From: Nanoarchaeota archaeon
Lineage (GTDB): Archaea; EX4484-52; LFW-46
DNA: 14,318 nt
Reading direction: 5' to 3'
Assembly: GCA_018897155.1 (NCBI GenBank)
Contig: JAHILE010000021.1
Coordinates: forward strand, 1 to 14,318
Below, piece by piece: positions 978 through 9,943 of this stretch. A program made the position numbers and the translations under genes. Each line of letters begins with the position of its first letter. Positions within the stretch are counted from its first letter, which is position 1. The notes under the pieces were generated by a model. That model searched no databases and was not told where the DNA came from. It saw only the letters and a list, made by a program, of their open reading frames with translations.

Positions 978-1487
978 TCATCTTTCAAGCATTGATTTTG
1001 CCTTGTTGATAAAATGTATTGCTTTTTCGCGAAGCTGCTTTATATGTTCAATATCAAAAAGCAATTTAGTAGAATAACTTGCTTTCTGCCGCTCGCTTTT
1101 GATGTCCGTATATATTTGTATTTCATTTCTTGTAAGCGAAAGACCATCATATAACTCTATTTCTTCTTTTGAAAATTCCACATAGTGCTTTATCAAAAAA
1201 CATACGGTTGCAGTATGGTCTTTTGAAGCAAAGCCCTTTTTTGCGAGAAGCGCAAGGCTTGAGTGGTATAGCGCATAATAAAAACCAGTAATCGCCCAAT
1301 CCGGAAACTTATTTTCTTTTATGAGGGAATAAGCAAATTCAATATTGTGGTCTGATTTTTCCATATGGGCTTTTACAAGGTTTTCGCTGGCAGGGATTTT
1401 CTGGATGATGCCCGCATCCAGATAATGGCGATAGCTTCTCTCCAGAGCGTCCTTATTTTCCAGCCATAATTTAATTTGCGGGTTCAT
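978..1487 (-). CDS. HEPN-domain protein, partner of the MNT nucleotidyltransferase (toxin-like)
   Basis: This 169-residue protein carries a HEPN domain of the archaeal UPF0332-like type. The core runs from about residue 37 (NLVKAHMEKSDHNIEFAYSL) through DWAITGFYYALYHSSLALL at 63-81 and the KDHTATVCFL segment at 89-98. In MNT-HEPN modules the HEPN protein is usually an RNase toxin or an AMPylation target of its nucleotidyltransferase partner. The usual catalytic R-x4-6-H motif is not evident: the candidate is R120-N-E-I-Q-I-Y126, with no histidine. The start ATG at 1487 lies within the end of the upstream nucleotidyltransferase gene (17-nt overlap), which indicates one operon with translational coupling. 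HEPN fold is well supported; toxicity is inferred. Confidence 0.85.
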   Translation of the reverse strand: MNPQIKLWLENKDALERSYRHYLDAGIIQKIPASENLVKAHMEKSDHNIEFAYSLIKENKFPDWAITGFYYALYHSSLALLAKKGFASKDHTATVCFLIKHYVEFSKEEIELYDGLSLTRNEIQIYTDIKSERQKASYSTKLLFDIEHIKQLREKAIHFINKAKSMLER

Positions 1488-2094
1488 TCAGCATAACCTC
1501 ATAATAATCCATATTGCCGCTGATGCAAAAGCCGCTCTGTTTTGCCTCAATTACAACGCGATTACCGCCTTTAGCGTATGAATTTCGGGTTGTGTAAAAA
1601 ATATTTAGCGGATATATGCTTGACGCGCTTATTTTTTCTTCGATTTGCTCAAAAGCGGCCTTTATTTCCTCTTCATACAGCTTCTGAAGCTTCTTGTTTT
1701 TAAACGAATGCAGGACAACAAGCAGGTCTATGTCGCTTCCGTTTTTTTCCTGTTTTCGTGACGCTGAACCGAATAAAATCACGAATGACAGGGATTTTGG
1801 CATTTCGGCCAAAAACTTTTTAACCGGCGCCTTTACATCTATGTTCAAACGCTCAAGCCGTTCGCAATCGAACAAACTGAACAGGATTTTTGCCTTAGCT
1901 TTATATTTTAGAAGATAAAACGTGTTCGCTTTTTCCCGAATTGATGCCGTTTCTTTCTTCAGTTTTTTTAGCGCATTCTGTAAAGAGCTGTCAGATAAAC
2001 CTGTATGCACTTTTAGTTGATTATAGTAAAGCAGTTTCTTTTTTGTTTCGTAAAATGCAAAGTATATCTTTTCTTCGGCAGATAATTTTTCCAT
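1471..2094 (-). CDS. MNT-type nucleotidyltransferase with N-terminal winged-helix domain (antitoxin-like)
   Basis: The 207-residue protein has an N-terminal winged-helix DNA-binding region (about residues 5-65; LKVHTGLSDSSLQNALKKL is the likely recognition helix). A minimal nucleotidyltransferase domain follows. The signature G109-S110-x10-D121-x-D123 (LFGSASRKQEKNGSDIDLLV) is intact and should bind metal and nucleotide. In known MntA/HepT-type pairs this enzyme neutralises the HEPN partner by AMPylating it, so an antitoxin role is likely by context. The fused winged helix suggests it also represses its own promoter, where two palindromes occur at 2128-2163. A TATA box 25 nt before the ATG predicts a leaderless mRNA. 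Domain assignment is firm; the regulatory role is inferred. Confidence 0.88.
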   Translation of the reverse strand: MEKLSAEEKIYFAFYETKKKLLYYNQLKVHTGLSDSSLQNALKKLKKETASIREKANTFYLLKYKAKAKILFSLFDCERLERLNIDVKAPVKKFLAEMPKSLSFVILFGSASRKQEKNGSDIDLLVVLHSFKNKKLQKLYEEEIKAAFEQIEEKISASSIYPLNIFYTTRNSYAKGGNRVVIEAKQSGFCISGNMDYYEVMLNEPAN

Positions 2095-8182: not shown

Positions 8183-8193
8183 AATATTTAAAG
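8183..8193 (+). promoter_or_regulatory. TATA box of tRNA-Asp
   Basis: AATATTTAAAG is centred about 38 nt before the mature tRNA 5' end, giving a short 5' leader for RNase P. Confidence 0.65.
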
Positions 8194-8225: not shown

Positions 8226-8413
8226 GCTCAGGTAGTATAACCGGCTAGTATAGAGGCCTGTCACGCCTCTGATCCGGGTTCGAGCACAGTCGGTTTCTTT
8301 CTCTTTTTTCAAAAAAAAGAGAAAGACAAGTCCGGGTAGAAAGAGAAAAAACGATGACCTCAACTTTGTTGAGGCCAAAAATCCGGACACTGTCGAAAAT
8401 CCCGGCCTGGGCG
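8226..8413 (+). tRNA. tRNA-Asp (GTC) with a T-loop intron
   Basis: The gene folds as a complete tRNA once an intron at 8285-8399 is removed. The acceptor stem is GCTCAGG (8226-8232) with CCTGGGC (8406-8412), seven pairs with one G-U, and discriminator G at 8413. The D-arm is GTAT/GTAT with a nine-base loop containing GG at 8243-8244. The anticodon stem GAGGC/GCCTC (8253-8257, 8265-8269) is perfect and the loop CTGTCAC gives anticodon GTC at 8260-8262, for aspartate. The variable region has four bases. The T-stem CCGGG/CCCGG (8274-8278, 8401-8405) is perfect. After splicing, the T-loop reads TTCGAGT, the usual seven-base form. Exons are 8226-8284 and 8400-8413. G at the discriminator position is as expected for tRNA-Asp. 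CCA is not encoded. Confidence 0.95.
8285..8399 (+). other. 115-nt tRNA intron at position 59/60, with BHB splice motif
   Basis: The exon-intron junctions form a canonical bulge-helix-bulge. The T-stem (8274-8278/8401-8405) is the outer helix. The central 4-bp helix is TTCG (8279-8282) with CGAA (8394-8397). The three-base bulges are AGC (8283-8285) and AAT (8398-8400). The inner helix is ACAGT (8286-8290) with ACTGT (8389-8393). Cutting after the second base of each bulge gives the exons. The intron itself folds further: a perfect 14-bp hairpin at 8296-8309/8313-8326 with loop CAA, an 8-bp stem at 8330-8337/8381-8388 directly stacked on the inner helix, and a 7-bp hairpin CCTCAAC-TTT-GTTGAGG at 8358-8374. 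Confidence 0.93.
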
Positions 8414-8473: not shown

Positions 8474-9943
8474 ATGAAACCTAAAGAAGATTTAAGAGAA
8501 TTGATCTATAACCAAGATAGAAAGATTGACAACCTGATAAATCGCTTGAAAAATAACAAAGCAATCAGTGAAACAAATAAACAGCTTCTTCTGGACTTTA
8601 GAGAAAAATCGAGGTCAAAGCATCTGAGCAAATGCCGTATTGAAATACAACTTCAATCGCTTTATAGAATAGCTCCCTACGCGCCAGATGACTTAAAAAA
8701 AGCCACGCAAAAAGATGTGGAGAAAATAATGGCTGAGATTCTGGACAAACATTATAGTCCGTGGACTATTGAGACCATTAAGGCTGTTCTTAAAAGCTTT
8801 TTCAGATGGATGCGCGATGTCCCTAAAACAGATCCAGCGCCTATAGAAGTGCGCTGGATAGAAAGATGCACACCGCCAAATAAATTATCAAAAGAGGATC
8901 TAATCACCGAAGAAGACTTAACAAAGATGATTAACAGCACGCCAAACACAATGCACAAGGGCGCAATGTCCTCATTACATGAAGGCGCTATCCGCCCGGG
9001 AAGTGAATTCTTAGGAATGCGGATAAAAGATGTTTCGTTTTTTGAAGACTATGCAGTCATAAGAGTGCGGGGAAAAATGGAAAAGAAAAATGGTGATAGA
9101 GAAGTATATTTAGTGCGTAGCCATGATTTGCTTCGCGCATGGGTTGATAACCATCCATTCAAGAACGATCCAGAACATCCGTTATGGATAGTCACAACAG
9201 ATATGAAAAAAAGGATTCGTCCTGAAGAGCATAAAGGCATCTGTTGGAACTGCGGACGCCAAAATGATCTGGAAAAGCTATTGCATCCTGAGCAACAGGT
9301 ATCTTCAAACGGAAGAACAGACCCTTTGTGTTCTCGTTGCGAAGCAAATTTGAATCTTGAAAAATTATATGGCAAAGTTATTTCCCTTAAATATCTGAAC
9401 AAAATACTGAAAGAAGCAGCAAAGAAAGCCGGAATCAAAAAGCGGATATATGGATACCTGTTCAGGCATAGCGGGGCGACAATCCTATACGGAACAATTG
9501 GCGAGGCGCTGGCAAAGAGAGTTATGGGACACTCTGCGGATACTCGTTGCGCGCGGGTCTATAATCACTTGAACAACGATGATTTGCTTGATGGAGTAAA
9601 GAGAGCTAACGGATTGCCTGAAGATGAGAAGAAAATTGAGCCGACCGGCGTATGCCCGAAGTGCAGCCATCCGAACGGCTACGGAGCAGCTACCTGTTCA
9701 CGTTGTGGAATGTGCCTAAGTCTTGAAGCAGCCATTGAAGTAAAAATAAAAGAGGAAGATGAGTTGGAGTATAAGGCGAGATCTAAGAAGCTATTAGATT
9801 TTGTCGAAAATAACCCTCGATTACTGAAGACGCTTGGCGAGGAATTGGAGAAGGCCCAGGCAGCAGGAAATACCGCGGATAGCAAGGAGCCTCCATCAAT
9901 AACGCAGGTTTGTGGAAAGGACAAAATAGGAAATGCCGTATAA
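8474..9943 (+). CDS. Tyrosine recombinase (integrase) with zinc-knuckle motifs
   Basis: The 489-residue protein is a tyrosine recombinase. An N-terminal helical core-binding domain spans about residues 20-125 (SPWTIETIKAVLKSFFRWMRD is typical). The catalytic domain runs from about 145 to 375: R174 in GAIRPGSEFLGMRIKDV, a beta-hairpin lysine region GKMEKKNGDREVYL, R331-H332 in LFRHSGAT, H353 in MGHS, and nucleophile Y363 in ARVYNHL. The residue usually histidine in HxxR is Y328. A zinc knuckle (C257/C260 and C286/C289) is inserted between the catalytic arginine and the RH motif, and a second (C394/C397, C408/C411) follows the nucleophile. The gene starts 60 nt after tRNA-Asp, a typical archaeal integration setting. 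The ATG at 8474 fits a leaderless start; TTG at 8465 is the alternative. Confidence 0.9.
   Translation: MKPKEDLRELIYNQDRKIDNLINRLKNNKAISETNKQLLLDFREKSRSKHLSKCRIEIQLQSLYRIAPYAPDDLKKATQKDVEKIMAEILDKHYSPWTIETIKAVLKSFFRWMRDVPKTDPAPIEVRWIERCTPPNKLSKEDLITEEDLTKMINSTPNTMHKGAMSSLHEGAIRPGSEFLGMRIKDVSFFEDYAVIRVRGKMEKKNGDREVYLVRSHDLLRAWVDNHPFKNDPEHPLWIVTTDMKKRIRPEEHKGICWNCGRQNDLEKLLHPEQQVSSNGRTDPLCSRCEANLNLEKLYGKVISLKYLNKILKEAAKKAGIKKRIYGYLFRHSGATILYGTIGEALAKRVMGHSADTRCARVYNHLNNDDLLDGVKRANGLPEDEKKIEPTGVCPKCSHPNGYGAATCSRCGMCLSLEAAIEVKIKEEDELEYKARSKKLLDFVENNPRLLKTLGEELEKAQAAGNTADSKEPPSITQVCGKDKIGNAV

Follow-up and report, generated by a model that had tools for sequence, protein, structure and literature searches.

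A tRNA-Asp gene split by a T-loop intron, and the dispersed intron and repeat family to which it very probably belongs, in the DPANN phylum EX4484-52

The window, which is the whole stretch of DNA analysed here (14,318 nt), is contig JAHILE010000021.1 of a Nanoarchaeota archaeon (assembly GCA_018897155.1). Near its middle lies a tRNA-Asp(GTC) gene interrupted in the T loop by an intron with relatives elsewhere in the genome; this gene and the family of introns and repeats around it are our subject. We refer to the genome of the window as G000 and to a sister of the same genus as G001; both are draft metagenome bins. The locus is composed as follows.

8183-8192, plus strand: TATA-like box (aatatttaaa) 34-43 nt upstream of the tRNA, a putative promoter element judged from sequence only
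8226-8284, plus strand: exon 1, tRNA-Asp(GTC) positions 1-59 (cloverleaf read by hand; tRNA and bulge-helix-bulge (BHB) finder)
8285-8399, plus strand: T-loop intron at 59/60, 115 nt (exact 5-4-5 BHB; folding z-score; same position in the sister species, locus L044)
8400-8413, plus strand: exon 2, positions 60-73, with discriminator G73 and no encoded CCA (sequence)
8274-8290, plus strand: 5' half of the BHB: CCGGG (8274-8278), TTCG (8279-8282), bulge AG^C (8283-8285), ACAGT (8286-8290)
8389-8405, plus strand: 3' half of the BHB: ACTGT (8389-8393), CGAA (8394-8397), bulge AA^T (8398-8400), CCCGG (8401-8405)

Read without its intron, the gene yields a full canonical cloverleaf. The acceptor stem (GCTCAGG/CCTGGGC) has seven base pairs, including one G-U; A14, G18G19 and A21 are present in the D arm; the anticodon stem GAGGC/GCCTC closes the loop CTGTCAC, with the anticodon GTC at 8260-8262; and the T stem CCGGG/CCCGG closes, after intron removal, the loop TTCGAGT. 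The BHB is exact: outer helix CCGGG/CCCGG, central helix TTCG/CGAA, inner helix ACAGT/ACTGT and two 3-nt bulges, AG^C and AA^T. This anatomy had been put forward by a first-pass annotation of the DNA (an archaeal tRNA-Asp(GTC) with a 115-nt intron at T-loop position 59/60, a textbook BHB and splicing that restores the seven-base loop), and it can be read directly from the letters, down to the complete cloverleaf and G73. The minimum free energy of 8226-8413 is -68.6 kcal/mol (z = -5.3; none of 200 shuffles was equally stable), and the corresponding fold contains the tRNA arms and BHB helices, the inner helix slightly off its canonical register.

The split is real and not a product of chance, since in the sister genome the tRNA-Asp (L044) is divided at the same position by a related intron. 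Exon 1 is 95% identical between the two genomes, TCCCGGCCTGGGC (exon 2) is common to the sister and to intron-less tRNA-Asp genes of another family, and tatttaaagatta lies upstream of the sister gene as well. When the genome (96% complete) was searched with the spliced tRNA, this gene was the only tRNA-Asp found, with positions 1-59 matched; the second, intact tRNA-Asp(GTC) gene considered in the first-pass annotation did not appear. Neither ARAGORN nor Rfam at its gathering score reported a tRNA at 8226-8413, because such finders miss T-loop introns; exon 1 alone matched the Rfam tRNA model, at 25.7 bits, below the cut-off. A group I or other catalytic intron was rejected, as the Rfam search gave no match. 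On the contig of G001 that carries the split tRNA-Asp there is also an intron-less tRNA resembling tRNA-Asp, with anticodon ATC (L099, G001 C31:25927-25999).

The gene is directly followed by another feature of the window.

8477-9943, plus strand: tyrosine recombinase with zinc-finger-like cysteines (PF00589), directly downstream of tRNA-Asp and missing there in the sister

As this recombinase gene begins only ~60 nt downstream, the split gene could be taken for a pseudogene or for the scar of an integration. The integrase adjoins the tRNA in G000 and not in the sister, and tRNA-Asp has been an integration target in the order: in family f2, a second copy of the final ~25 nt of tRNA-Asp follows ~105 nt downstream, in the manner of an att repeat (L125, L126). 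We nonetheless consider such an origin highly improbable. The BHB is exact, the exons are conserved in two species and the split gene is the sole tRNA-Asp found; the window has no duplicated exon 2, on which ground a scar of the neighbouring integrase was rejected.

Many other tRNAs of the two genomes are interrupted at the same place. We inventoried T-loop introns by hand reading and with a finder requiring the T stem, the acceptor stem and a BHB; some anticodons were hand-read and might be wrong. Introns at 59/60 occur in at least 13 tRNAs of G000 and at least 14 of G001, with lengths of 20-215 nt. In G000 the tRNAs concerned are Asp-GTC, Leu-GAG, Ser-GCT, Ala-CGC, Pro-GGG, Pro-CGG, Leu-CAA, Thr-GGT, Arg-CCT, Ile-GAT, Glu-CTC, Gln-CTG and Arg-TCG. 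Across the 27 tabulated T-loop introns of both genomes, the T stem is fully paired (5/5) in 27 of 27, the central helix has 4/4 pairs in 22 and 3/4 in five, and the strict 5-4-5 motif is found in 13. As a control, 94 kb of flanks gave one intron-type match, itself starting like a real tRNA.

Four of these sites differ between the sister species: those in Ile-GAT and Leu-GAG are filled in G000 and empty in G001, those in Ser-GGA and Pro-TGG empty in G000 and filled in G001. Orthology is supported by the tRNA-Met that adjoins Ile-GAT in both genomes and by the similar downstream flank of Leu-GAG; each difference may be a gain or a loss. The tRNA-Asp genes of family f2 are uninterrupted. In family f3 of the same order (G003, L171-L200), ten tRNAs are interrupted at 59/60 by introns 26-49 nt long; several of these introns have TGCTGCGGA...CCGCAGCTGAAAA in common, a family unrelated to that of G000 and G001; among the 27 tRNAs recognised in family f6, the finder gave no intron-type match. 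Part of the order is thus rich in T-loop introns, and their families differ from lineage to lineage.

The frequent use of 59/60 may follow from the tRNA itself. Positions 54-57 (TTCR) are nearly invariant, and an intron ending in YGAA-NN would complete the 4-bp central helix of the BHB whichever tRNA it sits in; the T stem would supply the outer helix and the intron's own ends the inner one. A single cassette could thus be spliced out of nearly every tRNA at this position.

Most of the tRNA-Asp intron is taken up by a structured repeat, hereafter the core.

8291-8380, plus strand: dispersed repeat element (core) inside the intron (covariance model match of 97 bits, 1.9e-20 in a genome search; other copies by BLAST)
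8294-8326, plus strand: polypyrimidine/polypurine hairpin Y1:R1, its R1 arm at 8314-8326, AAAAAGAGAAAGA (RNAalifold consensus)
8327-8337, plus strand: spacer CAAGTCCGGGT, its CCG covarying with CGG at 8291-8293
8338-8350, plus strand: R2, AGAAAGAGAAAAA, an exact mirror of the R1 arm and possible third strand of a triplex (mirror test)
8358-8374, plus strand: second hairpin CCTCAA/TTGAGG (consensus structure)

A search with the tRNA-Asp locus returned seven further places in G000 and the same family in G001: introns of different tRNAs are homologous. The covariance model, also named R1, was built from 13 aligned cores with a common fold and has 13 matches in G000 and 21 in G001, two of the 34 genomes of the phylum, with none in the other 32 at E 1e-4. 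Distinct copies are fewer than matches, because the low-scoring ones include fragments and hits to the opposite strand of one and the same palindromic hairpin. Scanned over a named genome collection, the exact intron pattern matched solely contigs of LFW-46, a scan that diverged relatives, any among the introns of Thermoproteales included, would escape. One of these contigs (L059) carries the same tRNA-Asp locus as L044, from which we infer that the sister genome is almost certainly LFW-46.

RNAalifold on the 13 cores gave a long polypyrimidine-polypurine hairpin closed by CRG/CYG, followed by a second hairpin. Both-sided changes are seen in 11 pairs over the whole core; pair 2:43, for instance, is G-C in eight and A-U in five. 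The spacer also pairs, in 16 sense introns, with a tail close to the 3' splice site whose distance hardly varies; none of 5000 shuffles reached the total. The 13 nt after the spacer (R2) mirror the 13 nt before it (the R1 arm) exactly, 13/13 in four sequence variants; a plain direct repeat was rejected, with 9-12/13 and a worse fit in all four. Between variants the R1/R2 mirror match drops, mostly to 6-11. In a test on six sequences, 72 of 78 positions match, whereas the largest of 200,000 shuffles reached 63, a result to be read with the low complexity of purine tracts and the shared ancestry of the variants in mind. Mirror purine repeats are able to form R*R:Y triplexes, and the mirror repeat would be compatible with one, a lead rather than a demonstration. 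In its boldest form, which we consider rather doubtful, the core would be a mobile nucleic-acid element of a kind not described before, and its function would depend on a triple helix in which the mirror R2 lies on the duplex of Y1 and R1. The three arms stay in step across four sequence variants, whether the copy stands in an intron, in one orientation or the other, or between genes; the invariant T loop of tRNAs would serve the element as a safe place to be spliced out.

The core is found in several settings. Inverted copies lie in both Ser-GCT genes (L004, L049), each with an exact BHB; another copy occupies the canonical 37/38 anticodon-loop intron of Ser-CGA in G001 (L111, 1539-1630); and others are intergenic. 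From the inverted and intergenic copies we argue that the core probably moves at the DNA level, and spread purely by reverse splicing is disfavoured by the same copies. A viral origin was rejected, as an exact-pattern scan of viral contigs gave no match. Further palindromic repeats are nested inside the core (L003, L008, L047, L050, L103, L152, L158); they often interrupt the spacer between its AATC and its CCGGGT, where a short duplication may accompany them.

The five intergenic copies inspected are all in sense and start 1-3 nt past a stop codon; together with the U-rich tract and strong hairpin, this could mean that the intergenic copies are primary, for example as a 3' untranslated region or transcription-terminator element later adapted as introns. 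Such a course of events is distinctly unlikely: most full-scoring copies are in tRNA introns, and a terminator within a tRNA gene would do harm.

A more serious contender, although not the explanation we favour, treats the T-loop introns as ordinary short ones (20-45 nt) and immobile, the ~90-nt core being an independent DNA element, akin to miniature inverted-repeat transposable elements (MITE) or repetitive extragenic palindromes (REP), that lands harmlessly in intron loops. Short 59/60 introns without the core do exist (Gln-CTG, 20 nt; Arg-CCT, 29 nt; Leu-CAA, 33 nt), and Thr-GGT has a 113-nt intron with the core in G000 and a 41-nt intron without it in G001. The intergenic, inverted and 37/38 copies and the nested palindromes point the same way, as do Y1 (IS200/REP-type) transposase genes, three in G000 and one in G001 (L167-L170). 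Against it, the sense copies begin within a few nucleotides of the splice site and mostly form the BHB inner helix with their 5' end; their 3' tail is likewise conserved, and the empty sites have no short intron at all.

Cleavage would fall to a single enzyme. One splicing endonuclease gene was found in the genome (PF01974, E 1.4e-27; L001, 1474-2331, minus strand). Its open frame has 285 aa, the first ~50 of which overlap a tRNA, so that the EndA protein is probably ~232 aa long. The best match is M. jannaschii 1A79, and the chain is single-domain, with no fused domain. Beyond this gene the genome search for a second subunit gave only noise, although a very diverged one could escape it; a heteromeric or epsilon2 endonuclease is unsupported, with a single gene and a single-domain chain. 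The catalytic Tyr (Y115) and His (H125) are kept across the order.

Taken together, the locus is very probably a working tRNA-Asp(GTC) gene with a spliceable BHB T-loop intron, the intron being a member of a dispersed, genus-specific intron and repeat family in EX4484-52 that looks like a mobile or formerly mobile one. The gene would be transcribed from the TATA-like box, the single-chain EndA (probably alpha4-like) would cut the two bulges, and a ligase, with RtcB the presumed candidate, would join the exons, as in archaeal tRNA splicing elsewhere; the structured ~90-nt core would spread or be exchanged at the DNA level, as its inverted, intergenic and 37/38 copies suggest.

Several observations weigh against this reading. 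Fourteen of the 27 T-loop introns lack the strict 5-4-5 motif, although alpha4 enzymes are reported to be narrow (PMC6379350). The catalytic Lys of EndA (K156 in M. jannaschii) is Ala or Ser in all members of the order aligned (L063-L091), and in its absence activity is not assured. No target-site duplication or dedicated transposase is tied to the element; the core model has no match in the fetched flanks of the Y1 transposase genes, and mobilisation from beside them was discarded. The tRNA inventory, from searches and selected loci, is partial, and it comes from two draft bins.

As to the lysine, loops of ARMAN-2 and crenarchaeal EndA (ASL and CSL) bear a lysine that aids cleavage at diverse sites (PMC12397907). 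In the EndA of the order, the region that corresponds to the ASL loop of ARMAN-2, ahead of the second helix region, is longer by ~4 residues and contains a conserved FGK; we speculate that this loop might make up for the lost residue. Loss of the lysine as the cause of T-loop introns was rejected: family f6 has a changed EndA, yet none of its 27 recognised tRNAs has such an intron.

The tRNA, the intron position and the BHB of the first-pass annotation thus stand, while its wider setting does not. It had noted that T-loop introns are known mainly from Thermoproteota, where heteromeric endonucleases cut non-canonical sites, and had thought 115 nt near the long end. The window belongs to DPANN (EX4484-52) rather than to Thermoproteota; no splicing endonuclease was found other than the alpha-type chain of one domain, which is not heteromeric; the length is unexceptional within the 20-215 nt of the two genomes; and the intron, rather than an isolated curiosity, is one copy of a dispersed family. 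Elsewhere in the window (978-2094, minus strand), an overlapping gene pair seems to encode a HEPN protein together with a nucleotidyltransferase that has a GSASRKQEKNGSDIDLLV motif, possibly a toxin-antitoxin pair.

If our reading is correct, the large-scale spread of tRNA introns known from Thermoproteales has an independent counterpart in a DPANN phylum with reduced genomes, where the endonuclease is apparently a single chain with its catalytic lysine replaced. Sites filled and empty in sister species, with the intergenic copies, make the gain of archaeal tRNA introns directly testable. T-loop introns may also help to explain tRNA under-counts by standard finders (18 tRNA types reported for LFW-46, PMC8561730). 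The same source describes LFW-46 as lineage LFWA-IV of phylum EX4484-52, within DPANN and sister to Nanohaloarchaeota.

Introns at 59/60 with a BHB are known in Crenarchaeota and Nanoarchaeota (PMC4090602); position and motif are the same here, and a dispersed tRNA-intron family in EX4484-52 or other DPANN is unreported in the open literature searched, which is not proof of absence. Among Asgard archaea, Atabeyarchaeia and Freyarchaeia have intron-rich tRNA sets with many non-canonical positions; the lineage differs, and homology between introns of different tRNAs goes unmentioned in the available portion of that account (PMC11291895). In Caldiarchaeum, disruption of tRNA-Thr links intron gain to a mobile element and a recombinase (PMC3293823), at a single locus with a 1.8-kb element, in contrast to the dispersed family described here. 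The epsilon2 and (alpha-beta)2 enzymes (PMC12397907) share with the present EndA an insertion in the same alignment region, lysine-bearing, and genomes with diverse introns; in contrast to them, this EndA is single-domain, exceeds the M. jannaschii loop by only ~4 residues and has another residue in place of the canonical lysine. The closest parallel is in Thermoproteales, where very similar introns occupy different tRNAs (Fujishima 2010, through PMC4090602). As described there, homologous introns lie there in different isoacceptors and are present or absent between close relatives, pointing to gain after speciation by a mechanism thought to act at the DNA level. Unlike in that case, no heteromeric endonuclease was found here, and the family belongs to the DPANN phylum EX4484-52, sits mainly at 59/60, has intergenic and inverted copies as well, and is built around a structured core with a covarying mirror repeat.
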